Source of the DNA: Pegea sp. RAD2-039
Taxonomy: Eukaryota > Chordata > Thaliacea > Salpida > Salpidae
Direction of reading: 5' to 3'
Assembly: GCA_034620365.1 (NCBI GenBank)
Contig: JAQGEQ010000329.1
Location: 248,001-312,000 of the forward strand
DNA length: 64,000 nt
A program made the translations under genes and the position numbers. Below the pieces are notes generated by a model, which ran no database searches, was not told the DNA's origin, and saw only the letters and a program-made list of their open reading frames with translations. Below, piece after piece: positions 1 through 45,109 of the stretch (the stretch's first letter is position 1; each line of letters begins with the position of its first letter).

Positions 1-582
1 TTTTTAAATAGTTTTCTGTTAATTTGTAAACTAAATTTGATGAGCTGAATACGGTCATTGAATACAAGAGATGATAAAATAGTTAGATGCTAGATAAATC
101 TAAACTGTTTTTGATTCACAACGTAAGCAATTTCTGTAATGTTGTTAGACTTACTTTTGCTGCTAAAACTGACTATTTGAAGACCATTTACTTTAAGTAA
201 TTAGAGAAAGGTGATTTAGAATTGTTCTCGGATATATTCTCAATAGAATTGTTGATTTTTGATTTATAAAGTGATTAATACTTTGGTTGCTGTGTTTTAG
301 AAATAAGAAACATTTTAGAGTATACTTAGCATCTCAATTTAGTTAAACAGCTCTTCAGATGCAGATGAAAAGTCGTTTGCCACGCAGAAATTTTGTAGAA
401 GTTATTATTATTATTGTGTTTGCCTTTGTATTAATCATAAAAGTATGCAGTCAAATGCTTTCATAAGTTAAAGTGTTACATCATAAAAAAGTTTTAATTT
501 AAACTTTCAAAATATATTTTTGCAAACTTCTTGATATTACATCAATTCAAAATACAGCTGAAAATCGAAAATATCTATCTTG
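1..582. other. AT-rich region upstream of the USP-like gene
   Basis: No coding exon, RNA gene or repeat family member is recognised here. It presumably carries the promoter of the gene that follows, but no clear TATA box or other core element could be assigned. Confidence 0.4.
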
Positions 583-1389
583 ATGATTGTTGAACGAAGT
601 TATTATGATAAAATCTTAAAGAACGGGGGAAAATATAGAAACATCAAATTTGTAGATACGTGCGTTGTAAATTCATGCATTCATTGTGTATTTTGGGCTT
701 ACATAAAAAGTGACACTTTGAAAAACTTTGTTGATCAAGTAATGTATCCTTCAGTTTTTTGTATAATCTCTAAACTATACAAAGAAGGTGTGACAGAAAA
801 GCTACAACAGATAAAAGGAAAGTTGTTGTGGTCACTCTATAAGGAAAGAAAAGTTAGTGAAGAAGCAATTTGTTGCAAAGATAATGTTTTAGAAGTTATT
901 GATAAACTATTTGAAGCAGTACCTAGCTTAATTCAAGAAATAAAATGTCTAAAACACAAGAAGATTATAGAATTTATCTATACTTATGTCACTATAGATA
1001 ATCAGTACAACTTTTACAACTTAAACAAAGCACTTGATGAAGCTCTGAAAAAAGTAAGAAACCGAAGATTAGATTGCTGTGATGAGACAGAGAATCACAT
1101 TACTTGCTCATTTGAAATGCAAACAGTCTTGTGGATTGATACAAGCGAAATGAAATGGGGTATTGGTGACCAAATACCAACTTCCATTGAAGTCAGAAGC
1201 CAAGTGTTTCAAGTGCAAGCCTTCATCAATAAAGAAAAGCACGCGACTAATCACGTGGTCGCTTACTGCAAGCGATCATCTGATGCAGATTGGAATATTT
1301 TTGATGATACTTTGAGCAGCCTATCTTTAGGAAGAGATAGATCATTGTTTCAGCCAATTGCTATTTTATATATTAATGAAACAACATAA
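583..1389 (+). CDS. USP-like cysteine protease candidate (intronless)
   Basis: This is a single uninterrupted reading frame of 268 residues. The first ATG is at 583; the codon just before it in frame is TTG and is not needed as a start. The family is not recognised with certainty. The ends look like a ubiquitin-specific-protease type papain fold: an N-terminal box DTCVVNSC with candidate nucleophile Cys27, and a C-terminal box with NHVVAYCKR (His224) followed by WNIFDDT (Asp241 or Asp242). USP and USPL1-type peptidases carry Cys, His and Asp boxes in this order. The middle is lysine-rich, helical and not recognised. At 268 residues it is short for a USP core and lacks obvious zinc-finger CxxC pairs, so it may be a minimal or transposon-linked member. 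The intronless structure contrasts with most genes here and would fit retroposition or a mobile-element origin. SUMO or ubiquitin specificity cannot be read from the sequence. Confidence 0.5.
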   Translation: MIVERSYYDKILKNGGKYRNIKFVDTCVVNSCIHCVFWAYIKSDTLKNFVDQVMYPSVFCIISKLYKEGVTEKLQQIKGKLLWSLYKERKVSEEAICCKDNVLEVIDKLFEAVPSLIQEIKCLKHKKIIEFIYTYVTIDNQYNFYNLNKALDEALKKVRNRRLDCCDETENHITCSFEMQTVLWIDTSEMKWGIGDQIPTSIEVRSQVFQVQAFINKEKHATNHVVAYCKRSSDADWNIFDDTLSSLSLGRDRSLFQPIAILYINETT

Positions 1390-32345: not shown

Positions 32346-32353
32346 TATAAAAG
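32346..32353 (+). promoter_or_regulatory. TATA box candidate of the cytokine-like gene
   Basis: TATAAAAG lies 91 bp before the start codon at 32,444, which would put transcription start near 32,375 and give a 5' UTR of about 70 nt. It is the clearest TATA element seen before any gene in the window and fits a tightly regulated or inducible gene. Confidence 0.6.
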
Positions 32354-32443: not shown

Positions 32444-33442
32444 ATGACTTCAATTTATAGTTTATTGTTACTAGTTGCACTTGCTTTTACCTCTTGTGGG
32501 TGTATCTCGGCTGGTCAAGTCTTTAGGAACTCATTTTTGGAGATGAAAGCAATTACAAATCGTGTGGAGAGAATTTTTGATCGCTTTGTGAGTTAAATTT
32601 TGATTTTATATAAATTAGTAATAAGTAGTCGGAAACATATATGTACGATTTTAAATTACAATAATCACAGTTGTTCAACTTTTTGAAAAAATTAATTTTC
32701 TTTATAAATAGTTATAGAAAAATAAAACTGTTACAGTTTTCAATTTTTACATTTCTTACAAGTTTCAGTTTTCCTTCACACTTTATTTCATTTTATGTCC
32801 ATTTTAAATTTATCAGATTCGAACTAACATGAAGTGTGAAGAACTTGCTCAATGTAGAGAGGAATTAACAAGCTTACAACTTACAAGCCTTCCCCAACAA
32901 ATCCGCTTCAGCCTCAAAGTTAGTTTAATAACTTATTGATATTAAGCTTCTAAGTGAATTTTTTAAGGGAAATTTTAATGATGTATGGAAAGAACAACTG
33001 AACGACCAATTAGAAGGACTGTACAGATTTTCCACCGCATTAAAAGGAGTTTCTTTGAGTGAATATCGAACCTCAAATTTTCATCCTGAGCCTCAGTTTA
33101 TAAAAGAGATTTTTAACGAACTGGATTTGATAAGTAGTGAGCTAACCCAATTCATCAGCACCTTACGTAAAAATGTAAGTAAATTATATAACAAGATGAT
33201 GGTAAGGTTTAATATGAGTCTGCATTTAGGTGAAAGCAACTTATTGTGTAACTTTAAAAGAACCAAACCCCAACAGCGAATGTGAGATATGCCTACATCC
33301 TCGTTTACCAAGTCGTCCTCTTGAAATCGTTAGAAATTATCAGTTTCTTTTGCAAATGCGGGACTACTTTGATAACTTCACGCGTAACTTCATTATTCTA
33401 TCAATGATGAATCCATCTAGCTGTTTATATGATGATGAATGA
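32444..33442 (+). CDS. Secreted helical protein, candidate class I four-helix cytokine
   Basis: Four exons (32444-32587, 32817-32918, 32968-33174, 33230-33442) give 221 residues; all three introns are phase 0. Residues 1-24 are a typical signal peptide (MTSIYSLLLLVALAFTSCGC and following). The mature part is about 197 residues and is predicted by eye to be four long amphipathic helices: A about 26-60 (exon 1 into 2), B 84-108, C 123-152 (both exon 3), D 182-210 (exon 4), with a long A-B loop in exon 2. Six mature cysteines (55, 61, 157, 169, 172, 216) could form disulfides; one N-glycosylation sequon lies at Asn200. Size, signal peptide, four-helix pattern, phase-0 introns and placing of helix A, the A-B loop, B-C and D in successive exons are all features of IL-6/LIF-type class I cytokines. 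No sequence identity to a named cytokine can be claimed. Alternatives are another secreted helical protein or a lineage-specific effector. Confidence 0.8.
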
Positions 33443-34971
33443 AATTGAAATTATTAAAATCTCGAAATATATATTAATTGATGTTGATTAGATTAAATGT
33501 AACTTTTGTAAACCTGTTTAGACGTCTTTTTAATTTTCTGTTTCATTCGCTTATGATTTTATTACTGAATATATTTTTAGGCATCATTTTATTTACAGAA
33601 ATTAACACAGAAATTGAAAATAAAATTTAATTTGAAATTAAATTTTCATTTTCATTTAATCATAAGAAAAGAAATTGAAAATAAAATATAACTTTATTAC
33701 TGAAATTATATTCACTGCATCTAATCACGGAAATATTTGTATATGTTAAGCAGTTTTGTTTTGTGGCGATTAATATTTGTTGAAATTTATCAACGCTCTA
33801 TAATTAGTAAATCTTATACTTTATGGTTTAAATCAAAATATATTTTTGTTACTTTTTCGTTAAATTTGAAAACTCTTGAAATAGACAGTTTTTTCAAATA
33901 TGATATTTTGATATTCAAATTTAGAATGATTTTTAACCAAAATAGGAAAGATGTTTTGGTAAATGAAATATATTGAGCGAAGGTTGAGCCTGAGCAGAAG
34001 ACATAATTGAATCAATTTTTCTGTTTAACTTGGAAATTTTCTTACTATACAACAAAAAAATACAAAATTGAAAAAAATCCAAAATTGTTTTGGTAAATCT
34101 TACATTTATCAAAAAAAGAATTAATTTGTTTGCAGCAATCAAATAGTTGAAAAATAAAATATTTTGTTAGTAATAACTTTCTAAAAAAATAAAAGTTTCA
34201 AAAACTAACTTTATTACTTTTTTACTTGGCAAATTTCTTCTTGACAATATTTGCTAATTTTTTTGTAATTTATCTATTTCAATGAAAGCTTATAGACAGT
34301 ACAAATAACAATTCATTTACCAAACCATTAGTATTGCTTTATTTAACTAAATAATCTATAAAAAAATGTTTACAAACATCCTAATCAAATAACCAAATTA
34401 ATAATTCATGGTAATAAAATAAAGTTCTTTTAATTTCTATTTGTAGAGTAGCGGCAAAAAGCAAACCGTTTCGCTTCATTTTGCAGACATTGTGTGATGA
34501 AGCGAGACAATCGCTTTCTTAGATAAGTTTCAAATGAATTGAAGTTTAGTTGAGCAGTTTTTAAGCTATATTCCTTTTAATATAAGAAACTGGGTTGTTC
34601 TTAAAAGCATGAAGCTAGGGTTACAGTTGCAATTATTTAATGTTGGAAAGTTAGCTTTTAGTTTTATTTCTAGTTTATATTTGAAAGCTTAAAGTTTCTA
34701 TTTTGCTGGTTTCATTTTTTGAAAGTGATTTATTGTTTGCTGTTTTAAAGTAAACCTTGAAGCATTGAACTATTTCTAGAATTACAATAAATTTTATGAC
34801 CATTTTTGTGATAATCAATATGTCAATTATAAATTTGAATGCGTCTGAATAAACTAAATACTCTTACTGATAACTGTCAAAATAAGTTTAATAAATTCTC
34901 AAAGTTCAGAAACTTGTTTCAAGTTTAAACTATTTATAACTTTTCAGGCAAACCATATTCATTTAGTAAAT
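33443..34971. other. Intergenic between cytokine-like gene and FKBP gene
   Basis: Holds the 3' UTR of the upstream gene; AATAAA occurs near 33,619. GAAATTGAAA, fitting the GAAANNGAAA interferon-response type pattern, occurs three times (33,441, 33,610 and 33,671). A 12-bp hairpin (34,468-34,479 with 34,497-34,508, one G-U pair, 17-nt loop) stands out. An acceptor-like TTTATAACTTTTCAG ends at 34,947, 24 nt before the FKBP start. Confidence 0.4.
34468..34508. other. Hairpin GTTTCGCTTCAT / ATGAAGCGAGAC
   Basis: A 12-bp stem with one wobble pair and a 17-nt loop, in the less AT-rich stretch 34,445-34,520. No known RNA family was recognised. Confidence 0.45.
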
Positions 34972-37786
34972 ATGGTATTCGATAGAAACATAATTAGCAT
35001 ACTTCAAGCAATTCTTGTAGTAACTAGTGTTTTTGCGATACCTATCTACGCCCAAAAGGATGAAGCTCAGGTCAGTGCTAACTTCTACATCTTACAAATA
35101 TTAAATTTGCTTCTTAGATTGAAGTCAAGGTCGTGTTCAGTCCTCGTGAGTGTTCCAGAAAAGTTCAACTGAAAGATTTTGTCCGTTATCAATACTATGG
35201 AATGCTAGAAGATGGAACATACTTTGATTCGAGGTAAAATTTTCATGTAAATAGAATCCTGTATATATCAGTTTCATGATAAATAAAAATAAATCGATTC
35301 GAACGGAAGGAGTTATTTTTCTTGACGTACTTTATAACTTACAACATTTCAAACTATTTTTAGACTTTAACCAATTTTTTTAGTTATCGATTAATATCTG
35401 TGTTGACACTAGAAGAAGTTTTTAACTGTTTGGAATTTGTTTAAACTTTATCACAGATGATACAGAAATTGAATCAGCTTAAAAATTAAAAATCACAAAA
35501 ATAGTCTGAAACGCATTTTAAAAATTCATTGCAGCCACAATAGAGGATACAGCTATGACACGTACGTTGGTACCGGATGGTTGATACCTGGTATGGACGC
35601 TGGTTTGGTTGGGATGTGCATCAATGAACATCGAATAATTAAAATTCCACCTGAGCTAGCATACGGAGAAAAGGGTATTACGCAATTTTGTCATCAGACT
35701 TTTTTATAATTTGTTAAGAAATACATCATTGAATATCATGCAAAAGTAAAATTCAAATTTGCTCTGTGATTATTTTGTTTTATTGAAACAGGTTCTGGAG
35801 CAATACCAGGAAATGCCACCATCTACTTCAATACAATTCTATTGGACGTTTGGAATGAAAATGACGAAGTTAAAGTAAGAATTTAAAAGCCGTTGCAAGA
35901 TAAATATCTTCTGAAATGAGCAATTATCATCATCTGCACTGTTGAGAACACTTTAATGATTTATTTAAAAACTGATTAAGCCATAACAGTGATGTGAAAT
36001 ACTTGCTAAATGCAGTCAACTTTAAATCTTTGCGGTGATGCAGAACAGTATGTTCAGACAAGCGTATCAAAGTGCAAACTTTTTATTATTCCCAATACAA
36101 CCACTAGGGGGGACTGAATCATAGACAAGAATTTACTGAATTTGATCGAGTATCTTCTTAAAGGTAACCACAACTTTTAAACCGATCACATGCGAGCGTA
36201 GGCTAGAAGTAAGCGATTACATTCGATACCACTACAACGGTACCTTAGCTAATGGCAAAGTCTTTCATACCAGGTAAAATGGTCTAAACTAATCAGATAT
36301 CCACTGAAATTATATAACAGCTACCAGGAAGGCCACACCTACAACACATATGTCGGTCAGGGCTGGTTAATCAAAGGAATGGACAAAGGACTGATTGGTA
36401 GTTGTGTTGGTGAGCGAAGGCGCATTCAATTTCCACCTCTTCTTGGGTATGGAGAACGGGGCGATGGTAAGGAATAAATAAGAAGTAGTCGTCATGACAA
36501 AAGCTTTTTGAGTAGGCAAGAACATTCCTGGATCTGCATCACTGACTTTCGATGTTGAAGTAGTCGATTTTCACAACCCAGATGATGACGTTGTAATTAC
36601 AGTAACTCACAAAATAGAAAACTGCCAACGACAATTGGAATCGGGCGATTATATTCGCTATCACTACAATGGAACTTTCATGGATGGAACTCTTTTTGAT
36701 TCAAGGTTTGGTGTAAGTAACAAACCAGCTTAGTTACCAGTTTGTTGCAGTTACCAGCGCAACCACACTTACAACACTTACGTTGGAAGGCAACGATTAA
36801 TTCCTGGCGTGGATCGCGGATTGATTGGGGTCTGCATGGGAGAGCGACGTAATTTGGTCATTCCTCCCCATCTCGCTTACGGCGAGCCTGGAGTTGGTAA
36901 GTCGCTTGTGACGTCATCACATCGTGAAGTAAAATCAATCGATGTGAAGATGATAAAATCCCGGGAAGTGCTGTCATCATATTCGATGTACACATTATCG
37001 ATTTCCACAATCCCAAAGATGACGTCACAGTGGAAGTGATGACGCAGGTAGAAGAAGACGCTCGGCAAGTTGAAAATGGAGATTATGTTGTATATGACTT
37101 TACTCTCAAACTAATGGATGATTCTATATTGGATACCAGGTGAGTCTTGTTGTTTCACATAGCTTGTGTGGAGTCAAGCTCTTGTTCTTAGTGAAGATGA
37201 AAGATGGGGAGTTTATGTTGGGCATCAAGAGGACCCTGAAGGATTAGCGAGAGGTTTGATTGGTATGAAAGTAGGTGAAGAACGAAAAGTAGTAATCCCT
37301 CCTCATGTTGGATACGGAGAGTTTGGCAAGAGTAAGATTTAGTTCTCTTTGACTTCTTCAGGATTTAATCTTTTTATTGCAGAGGATTATGTTCCTGGAA
37401 GTGCAGTTCTTGTTTACTTTTTGAAATGTAAAGAAATCCACGAAGGGGTCCCTAAAGGAAGTTTACTGAAGTGGAAAGTGCAGCAAAAAACCGAAGAAGT
37501 CGAAAAAACGTTCAAACTTGCTGATGTTGACTCAAATTCTTCTGTGGATGCAAAAGAAGTTAGAAGTCTTTGATTTGATGTATTTTTAGCTGATTCATTT
37601 GTTTTTCAGTTGACAGTACTTCTTGAAAACGCAGTAGAGAGTAAACAGCTCATTTTTGCTCCTCATCTGTCATCTGAATACGTTCTTCGTCAAGTTGTCC
37701 CAGAAAAATCTCTTTCTGAAGAAGATTTTTCAAAATTTCTCAAAGAAACTGGAGGTATCATCGAAGACCTGAAAGATGAATTATAA
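34972..37786 (+). CDS. FKBP9/10-like: ER peptidyl-prolyl isomerase, FKBP9/FKBP10 type
   Basis: Twelve exons (34972-35070, 35118-35233, 35535-35674, 35792-35874, 36164-36273, 36321-36466, 36516-36705, 36751-36896, 36950-37139, 37192-37331, 37383-37558, 37610-37786) give 570 residues, the usual length for this family. A signal peptide (1-27) is followed by four FKBP domains. The first three carry the LIPG(M/V)D and LAYGE/LGYGE-type motifs; the fourth is divergent and lacks the Trp-Leu-Ile-Pro-Gly box. An EF-hand loop [12 protein letters not shown] (501-512) and a C-terminal KDEL place it in the ER lumen, where such proteins isomerise prolines of procollagen and other secretory clients. Each FKBP domain is cut at the same two places (phase 2 after DS(S/R) or HT, phase 1 after the YGE motif), showing that the domain duplicated with its introns. 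The last seven introns are only 45-53 nt. AATAAA occurs near 37,984. Confidence 0.95.
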
Positions 37787-42036: not shown

Positions 42037-42363
42037 TTAAACATTCCATCTGTGGTTACAAGAAGAATTTTCACATTTAAAGAAAAGAGTCATAGGCTCA
42101 TCAGCTGATCTAATTTGTAGCTCCTTGAAATAAGCTTTGGGATGATTACATTTAGGGCACTTTTCATCAGTAGTTTGAACATTCTTCCAAGCCTCATCCC
42201 CACCAAGAATATCATCAAGAGACTTTAGCTTAGGGTAGAAAGTTTTGGTGATAGGTTCAGTGATATTCCACAGGTAGGGGCAGGTAGGACAAGTCAGTTT
42301 ATTGTAGTTGTTCAAATATTTGATGGTCAACAAGTTTGTACAATATGGGCAAAATTTAAACAT
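42037..42363 (-). CDS. POLR3K: DNA-directed RNA polymerase III subunit RPC10 (C11)
   Basis: An intronless frame of 108 residues, the same length as in vertebrates. The N-terminal zinc ribbon has CPYC near 5-8 and CPTC near 26-29. The C-terminal TFIIS-like ribbon has CPKC, the acidic hairpin RSADEPMT (the Asp-Glu pair needed for RNA cleavage), and paired Cys ending CNHRW. The subunit gives Pol III its intrinsic RNA cleavage and takes part in termination and reinitiation. It lies 152 bp behind the SDR gene on the same strand, with an acceptor-like site 22 nt before its ATG, suggesting co-transcription. Confidence 0.97.
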   Translation of the reverse strand: MFKFCPYCTNLLTIKYLNNYNKLTCPTCPYLWNITEPITKTFYPKLKSLDDILGGDEAWKNVQTTDEKCPKCNHPKAYFKELQIRSADEPMTLFFKCENSSCNHRWNV

Positions 42364-42385
42364 CTTTCTAAATCTAAATTAAAAC

Positions 42386-42515: not shown

Positions 42516-43418
42516 TTAGTTAGGTGGTCTAGCAGCAGCAGTGATTTCAATAACTTCACCATTGATCATCTTATTTTCATATACTGCTAACACACAATCA
42601 GCAAACTCTATAGGCTTTCCTAATCTATTTGGAAAAACATTAAAAAGCTCAACATATTGAGAAATTTTTTTTGAAACATTAATTTCAGGAGTATAAGTTA
42701 GCTGTGATTCAAAAAAGGTTGGAGAGATTGTCACAGATCTGATGTTACAATGAGCAAGGTCTCTAGCAACTGGAAGAGTCATCGAATTGATAGCACCATA
42801 AGATGCAGAGAGTGAAGAGTGAGCAAAGTTTCCATGTTTACCATAAATTCCTGAAGTGTTTATCAAAACTCCTTGTTCATCCAGCGGTTTTATATCCTCT
42901 ACTTTGATATGCTCAATCATTTTTTGTGCACAACACCGAAGAAAATTAAATGAAGTAACAACATTATTATTCAATATATACTCTATATGCTGCATATTAA
43001 TCATATTGTCTGAAGACTGTCTATAAAATATATGATTTTGTCCAGTTCCAACACAATTAACTGCTAAACCAAATTTACTTGAATCATCGATATGAGATAA
43101 AGCAGCTTTTAACTGATCTTCACAAAGCATATCTCCTTGTTCAAAAATAAATTGTTTTTTTTCTTCAGATTTCAGTATTATATCATCAACAGAAAAAGGT
43201 TTAAAAGCACGGTTTATATATGGATAAGTAAAATCATTTGGTGGTTCTTTTTGATTTTCTTTTATCAATTTGTCTTTTTTCTTCTTTTCATGAAATGTTA
43301 TACTATCAAATCCAACCACCTTTGCTCCTAACTTAAGTAATTTAGCAGCAGTAGTACTACCCAATTCACCACTAGACCCAGCTACAAATGCTACCAAATT
43401 ATGATAAGGTCCTTTCAT
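42516..43418 (-). CDS. Short-chain dehydrogenase related to HSD17B10, catalytic residues lost
   Basis: An intronless frame of 300 residues. The Rossmann start VAFVAGSSGELGSTTA (about 10-25) carries the glycine-rich GxxGxLG motif, and NCVGTG stands in place of NNAG. The C-terminal half (MTLPVARDLAH, NIRSVTISPTFF, RLGKPIEFADCV, NGEVIEI) matches the HSD17B10 (type 2 3-hydroxyacyl-CoA dehydrogenase) pattern closely. The usual YSASK active-site block reads LSASY: the catalytic Tyr is Leu203 and the Lys is Tyr207. A lysine-rich insertion of about 45 residues (about 43-88) follows the second beta strand. It is therefore probably a pseudoenzyme. Animal HSD17B10 also works as the MRPP2 scaffold of mitochondrial RNase P, which does not need dehydrogenase activity; a similar role is an inference. 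No clear mitochondrial presequence is present. Confidence 0.85.
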   Translation of the reverse strand: MKGPYHNLVAFVAGSSGELGSTTAAKLLKLGAKVVGFDSITFHEKKKKDKLIKENQKEPPNDFTYPYINRAFKPFSVDDIILKSEEKKQFIFEQGDMLCEDQLKAALSHIDDSSKFGLAVNCVGTGQNHIFYRQSSDNMINMQHIEYILNNNVVTSFNFLRCCAQKMIEHIKVEDIKPLDEQGVLINTSGIYGKHGNFAHSSLSASYGAINSMTLPVARDLAHCNIRSVTISPTFFESQLTYTPEINVSKKISQYVELFNVFPNRLGKPIEFADCVLAVYENKMINGEVIEITAAARPPN

Positions 43419-45109
43419 TTTGTAGTTTACTTATACTATAGAAGATGAAAATAAACATGAGAATAACAATAGATGAGTTTTTTGTTTATATAAGTTGAAT
43501 ATAATATTAAGAGCATTCGCAAAGTTCTAAAACTATAAACTTAATTAGAATTATAAAACATAAATCATTTTATTAATAATCATTATCATAAAATACTTTT
43601 TATTACTTCAATTTTAACAAATATATAAAAAACTACAAAATACATTATGCAAAAATTCAAAATATGTAACATACAAACTAACAAATAGTTATATTTAAGG
43701 TTTTTTAATAACTGTTTATATCATAAATACTTTAATATACAAAGGTCATAGGGAATACTAAAATGAAAAAGGTAACAATATCTAAATATTTACCTAGAAA
43801 ATAAAATACATAAACTATCAAGCAAAGATCATACAATACACTAAACTATACAAATATCAAAAATATGGTACAAAAATATAACTAGATTATCATTCTACTA
43901 GCATTTTACTGATTAATCTACAATCTAATTATCTGTTTAAGTTTATATTATACTACAATTATTTTATATTATACTAAAACTAATTTAATATTCAAAATGT
44001 AAATAATAATTATTACACAAATATATGAAATGAGTATATTTATACATACTTGATTTAATGTTAAAATTGAAAATGATATATATATGTAAGATAAAAAGTT
44101 GATTAAAAAACACTAAATAATCTTGTGCAATATATTGATATAAATAATACCACATGGCTTTACCTTAAATGCACAAAACCTTCAACAGATTAAGTAACTA
44201 CAATAACTTAATTAAAAATTTATAACATACAAAACATATAAAGCGTTAACATTAAAAACTATTTCATAAAACAAAAATTAATATTAAAATTAAAGTTGGT
44301 CTTTTAGTAAATAGTTGAATTTATCAAAGAACAAAAAATTAAATAAGGCATTCTTATAACTTAAAAAAAGTGAACGAAATTATGTATAATAATGATTAAA
44401 ACACTTTTGTAGGTCTTAAAACATTAGCATTCATTAAAAGAAGATAAAAGCTCTTTTTAAAGATTTTAGATTACTAAATTTACAAAGCATGTGATTCAAT
44501 CTTCAACATTCAGATATTTAAACTTTAATTCAAGACTAATGTGACTTAAGATAAGAAATACGTTAGCTAAATTAAAAAAAGGGCATTAATTTAGGCTTAG
44601 TACCTTAACTGAAAAAGTTTAACGCTTTTTAATAAACTTATGACCTGCAAAATCATTTTAAATGGCCTAACTTCTATCAACTTTGCTTTCAACTTAGTTT
44701 TATACGAGCACCGGGCTACAAACTTGCAATTAATATTACTAATTTAATAATTGTATTATTAATGATAAACAGAAAATAGAAATATATAAAATGAAAGGTT
44801 TCAAGTATCACAGGTTAACAACAGTAGTGAAAACTGCTCAGGTAAAGTTATGCGAGGTATGATAAAGTTAGGAGTAATAAGATACAAAACGATTAGAAAA
44901 ATCACGGCACCATACACTCGTTGTCAATAAATAACTCAAGTCATACTTTTTTAGCATTTTTACAAAAATGACAAAGTTTAATGTAGTTCGGAAAAAGATT
45001 ATAAACAGTTTTTACTATTTGTTTTTTTATTACTTTAATGAAAAGGTATAAGTCAAATGGATTCAATAAAAGTGATCAATTGAGTAAATTTTGAAAAGCA
45101 GTTAATTAT
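43419..45109. other. Intergenic, upstream of SDR gene
   Basis: Very AT-rich with no supported exon or repeat. An acceptor-like CATCTTCTATAG on the minus strand ends 17 nt before the SDR ATG. Confidence 0.4.

Follow-up and report, generated by a model that had tools for sequence, protein, structure and literature searches.

The gene at positions 32444-33442 (+) of the window, the 64,000-nucleotide stretch of contig JAQGEQ010000329.1 analyzed here as a whole, probably encodes a secreted long-chain four-helix class I cytokine. This protein would act as an intercellular messenger that joins class I receptor chains and activates the JAK and STAT of the same genome. A class I helical cytokine had been put forward in the original prediction, which named structure prediction and a fold search as the way to assess it.

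Two AlphaFold models, each led by a different member of the protein family, displayed four long helices, a short turn between helices B and C, and long A-B and C-D loops. In the PDB fold searches performed with the two models, all 50 rows listed per search were long-chain class I cytokines or hormones, including IL-6, IL-11, CNTF, CLCF1, IL-27p28, G-CSF, LIF, OSM, leptin, prolactin, and growth hormone (GH). Class II cytokines (IL-10 and interferons) were absent from the PDB rows listed, and viral IL-10 homologues were observed at ranks 2, 4, and 39 of the viral library. The class I topology was judged from the predicted models, with the handedness known only through the superpositions. On this basis, the predicted fold of the window protein is that of the long-chain class I cytokines, like IL-6, IL-11, and prolactin, in agreement with the class originally proposed. 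Homology to another secreted family, which the original prediction had considered, did not emerge.

The sequence comparisons gave a different picture from the fold. The window protein matches no Pfam family, NCBIfam returned only matches far below the cut-off or at E values of 0.0027 or worse, and a PDB sequence search with this protein found nothing. PDB profile searches retrieved only designed bundles, coiled coils, and other helical proteins, with E values of 0.08 or worse. Alignments obtained with hhalign against nine human cytokines were weak, and the four for which 100 shuffled controls were run (IL-6, G-CSF, IL-11, and CNTF) scored no better than the shuffles. The alignment with IL-6 covered the full length with the C-x5-C pair and helix D in register; its score of 12.5 is below the shuffle median of 13.2, and it was given no weight. 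Membership in the IL-6 or G-CSF sequence family was thus not found with Pfam, PDB sequences, or hhalign. That this protein works like a long-chain class I cytokine is suggested by its predicted fold, its size, the design of its gene, its likely secretion, and the pathway, and not by sequence.

Gene architecture and conservation of the family

The gene contains four exons, all with lengths that are multiples of 3, and its product has 221 residues. The three introns, all GT..AG, follow codons 48, 82, and 151 and are all in phase 0, as originally described. The G+C content is 0.35 to 0.40 in the exons versus 0.20 to 0.27 in the introns, within a window that ranges from 0.21 to 0.38 in 2-kb bins. 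The features of the gene are as follows.

32346..32353 (+): TATA-box-like word TATAAAAG, 98 nt 5′ of the start codon
32444..32587 (+): exon 1, 144 nt, codons 1-48; signal-peptide-like N terminus and most of helix A
32588..32816 (+): intron 1, 229 nt, phase 0, GT..AG
32817..32918 (+): exon 2, 102 nt, codons 49-82; end of helix A and A-B loop with invariant Cys55 and Cys61
32919..32967 (+): intron 2, 49 nt, phase 0, GT..AG
32968..33174 (+): exon 3, 207 nt, codons 83-151; helix B (85-118), short turn, and most of helix C (125-156)
33175..33229 (+): intron 3, 55 nt, phase 0, GT..AG
33230..33442 (+): exon 4, 213 nt, codons 152-221 and stop; end of helix C, C-D loop (Cys157, Cys169, and Cys172), helix D (180-210), and tail with Cys216
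33453..33458 (+): first AATAAA/ATTAAA poly(A)-signal-like word after the stop, common in A+T-rich DNA and weak

The TATA box proposed ahead of the gene is present as a word, but it is weak evidence alone because there are 10 copies of this word on the + strand of the window. The proposed correspondence between exons and helices holds overall, with phase-0 introns separating predicted helix A, the A-B loop, helices B and C, and helix D, but exon 2 takes in 4 residues from the end of predicted helix A, and exon 4 takes in 5 from the end of helix C. Phase-0 introns that separate these same four parts are the design of vertebrate class I cytokines. In human IL-6, the first intron is located 5 residues short of the end of helix A, the second where helix B starts, and the third 2 residues short of the end of helix C. 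Carried over to the predicted helices, these places are 1, 3, and 3 codons from the introns of the window gene. Three random introns would all fall within 3 codons of the IL-6 places with a probability of approximately 2e-4, or 2.5e-5 if phase 0 is also demanded at a rate of 50%. The match to the IL-6 design supports the assignment as a cytokine, although it is not decisive.

Searches of 5.8 billion proteins revealed a small family. With the window protein as the query, 2 relatives were found among 210 candidates (E ≤ 10); a three-row profile gave 5 relatives among 1,710 candidates, and a six-row profile gave the same 5 among 4,744. The closest relative, P0001 (longest contig of 1,047 nt), has 221 residues and is 86% identical over 100% of the query, with no gap at any of the three exon junctions. 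The equal length, the high identity, and the gap-free junctions indicate that the gene reading is not due to chance, and the absence of gaps at the junctions suggests that the source of P0001 is probably a spliced transcript. The other relatives, P0002 to P0005, have 217 to 228 residues and are 33 to 36% identical. None of the five has a name or a precomputed Pfam domain, and a paralogue search of the genome with P0002 as the query matched only two exons of the window gene.

The six mature cysteines counted in the original prediction are invariant in all six sequences: Cys55 and Cys61 in the A-B loop, Cys157, Cys169, and Cys172 in or at the C-D loop, and Cys216 in the tail. Cys18 and Cys20 of the window protein fall in the signal region. 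The best 11-residue hydropathy stretch (2.26 to 3.11) is located inside the first 18 residues in the six sequences, and by the same measure none of them has a later membrane-like stretch. The predicted signal peptide therefore agrees with hydropathy, which was its basis here, and the window protein is likely secreted.

Amphipathicity was assessed from the hydrophobic moment against 2000 shuffles per helix. Helices A, B, and C are amphipathic (P values of 0.0015, 0.0375, and <0.0005, respectively), as had been claimed for all four, but helix D is not (P = 0.75), with weak moments at 100 degrees in all six sequences. Helix D is the most conserved element of the family, with an invariant R-N-Y-Q-F stretch and a mean share of the commonest residue of 0.74 (9 invariant residues). 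It is followed by the A-B loop (0.68; 10 invariant), the C-D loop (0.64; 8 invariant), and helices A (0.59; 3 invariant), B (0.55; 4 invariant), and C (0.47; none invariant).

Once its signal peptide is cleaved off, the protein would form a bundle tied by disulfides. Given that the A-B loop and helix D, with its R-N-Y-Q-F stretch, are the most conserved parts, they may constitute the main receptor face. The receptor chains brought together in this way would activate the bound JAK, which would then activate STAT.

The vertebrate IL-6 family and G-CSF share with the window protein the predicted fold, the length, and the long loops between helices A and B and between helices C and D. As in the window protein, helix A of IL-6 and G-CSF is closely followed by a C-x5-C pair. 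The window family differs from them by having no detectable sequence similarity, an extra cysteine cluster in the C-D loop and tail, and its own helix D motif, and no gp130 was found, with 140 of 577 WSXWS-like places read. Likewise, the window protein has no sequence similarity to the prolactin/GH group, of which GH was compared, and the cysteine pattern of these hormones is different. Among invertebrates, the window protein would fill the same role as insect Unpaired (Upd1-3), described as a ligand upstream of JAK and STAT (PMC13203501).

Pathway and receptor candidates in the genome

A single match to the JAK FERM F2 domain was found in the genome, within one 1,144-residue frame (L014, 1264-4698, −) that also contains two kinase stretches and weaker matches of the FERM F1, SH2-like, and PH-like types. 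The best PDB match of this frame is the 1,173-residue JAK chain 7t6f, presumably JAK1 (residues 331-1135; E = 2.3e-86). The JAK gene is one uninterrupted frame of 1,144 codons, whereas short introns interrupt the genes beside the cytokine gene. Contig C18 carries, in order, STAT interaction, coiled-coil, DNA-binding, and SH2 pieces; two of the four are above the curated cut-off, and the DNA-binding piece is closest to STAT5B.

The original prediction pointed to a gp130-like receptor with a WSXWS motif as the partner to be sought in the same genome. Four codon patterns for this motif gave 577 places (212 + 170 + 76 + 119), of which all but 201 were listed and 140 were read in context (60 + 40 + 40). 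The last 80 were picked by a plausible middle residue, and they lie outside repeat elements and what look like clusters of thrombospondin repeats. One of the patterns, with 212 places, was outnumbered by its reversed control, which gave 439. Among the places read, a true fn3 context was seen once, in a CRLF3 orthologue with the motif WSPWS in a single 474-residue frame (L116, 949-2373, −), the others being thrombospondin repeats and short frames due to chance. A cytokine-receptor-like gene is present, but neither a Domeless-like nor a gp130-like receptor was found among the 140 places. Pfam IL6Ra-bind had 0 matches in the genome, in a search run without a positive control. In the fn3 search, 150 of 438 candidates were scored, mostly from one titin-like region of contig C1. 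The best matches to a gp130 fragment were in this region too, and two others look by eye like Ig/fn3 adhesion proteins.

The titin-like region (contig C1, ~737000-836000, −) is made of fn3 arrays whose stop-free open frames reach 6,547 codons. A WSKWS motif at ~24275 (−) of the window is, by eye, inside a thrombospondin type-1 repeat and does not belong to a cytokine receptor. Dense clusters of WSXWS codons on contigs C3 (~1254000-1259700) and C9 (~126000-227600) are thrombospondin type-1 repeats where read, and some of those on C9 are nearly duplicated ~10.5 kb apart.

Several observations weigh against a cytokine that signals through JAK: the window family has no sequence kinship to cytokines, no JAK-coupled receptor was found with 140 of 577 WSXWS-like places read, and four-helix bundles are common, with the weak profile matches being to designed bundles and coiled coils. 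These observations would fit a secreted four-helix bundle whose cytokine-like shape arose independently and that serves another role, such as ligand carrying or the building of extracellular material, with neither a class I receptor nor JAK involved. We consider this unlikely, since the PDB fold rows listed contained long-chain cytokines and hormones rather than mixed bundles, the A-B and C-D crossover loops and the phase-0 introns fit the cytokine design, and both JAK and STAT are present in the same genome.

It is also conceivable, though very improbable, that the receptor of a ligand with this fold is the CRLF3 orthologue and not a JAK-coupled transmembrane receptor. CRLF3 is the one cytokine-receptor-like gene found, and insect CRLF3 is reported to respond to erythropoietin, with no endogenous ligand known (PMC8063046). 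However, its being the sole find means little when 140 of 577 WSXWS-like places were read. An intracellular role as a helical protein, for instance a mitochondrial ribosomal protein like mL59, is scarcely credible. Three of the five relatives matched Pfam mL59 (PF18126) at E ≤ 10 (25.0, 12.8, and 12.4 bits for P0003, P0002, and P0004), but even the best match (P0003; E = 2.6e-5) falls short of the curated cut-off of 31.5 bits and spans no more than residues 81-152 of P0003. No mL59 match was listed for the window protein, P0001, or P0005, which match no family of this type, and the conserved cysteines and hydrophobic N terminus fit secretion.

Neighboring genes and assembly

Downstream of the cytokine gene and on the same strand, a gene at 36253-37342 (+) contains at least four FKBP-type isomerase domain pieces, and we take it to resemble the multi-domain FKBPs of the endoplasmic reticulum. 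Ordinary conserved genes of the window include a zinc-ribbon TFIIS/RPB9-like RNA polymerase subunit at 42037-42378 (−) and a short-chain dehydrogenase at 42516-43430 (−). A 275-residue open frame at 562-1389 (+) has no Pfam match above the cut-off. The assembly comprises 105,744,746 bases in 387 contigs. COX1 was not found in it, and no telomere array was found at the 21 contig ends examined; one end (L136) has 15 CCTAA words inside a longer repeat.

Evolutionary reading

IL-6-like messengers are reported as not found in most invertebrates. JAK and STAT are reported from sponges onward (PMC13203501), and the receptor-JAK-STAT system is placed before chordates (PMC3296744). Many invertebrates therefore have the pathway without a known ligand. 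Among the matches listed from the open-access literature, with subscription journals and preprints outside the scope, there was no report describing a helical cytokine from rotifers or any other spiralian; in the available part of an article on rotifer lectins (PMC8878817), cytokines and JAK are named only in the reference list, and the term rotifer is absent from the text of PMC13203501.

Taking the host as spiralian and rotifer-like, we tentatively raise the possibility that the ancestor of protostomes and vertebrates had a long-chain class I cytokine encoded by the same kind of four-part phase-0 gene. The window gene might then be a surviving descendant of that gene, which sequence searches fail to detect and whose product is still wired to JAK and to a STAT resembling STAT5.

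As a candidate ligand that is small and expressible, the product of the window gene shows a structure-first route to finding others. If it is homologous to the vertebrate cytokines, IL-6-type signaling would be older than the protostome-deuterostome split, and the intron design would provide a marker for tracing it.
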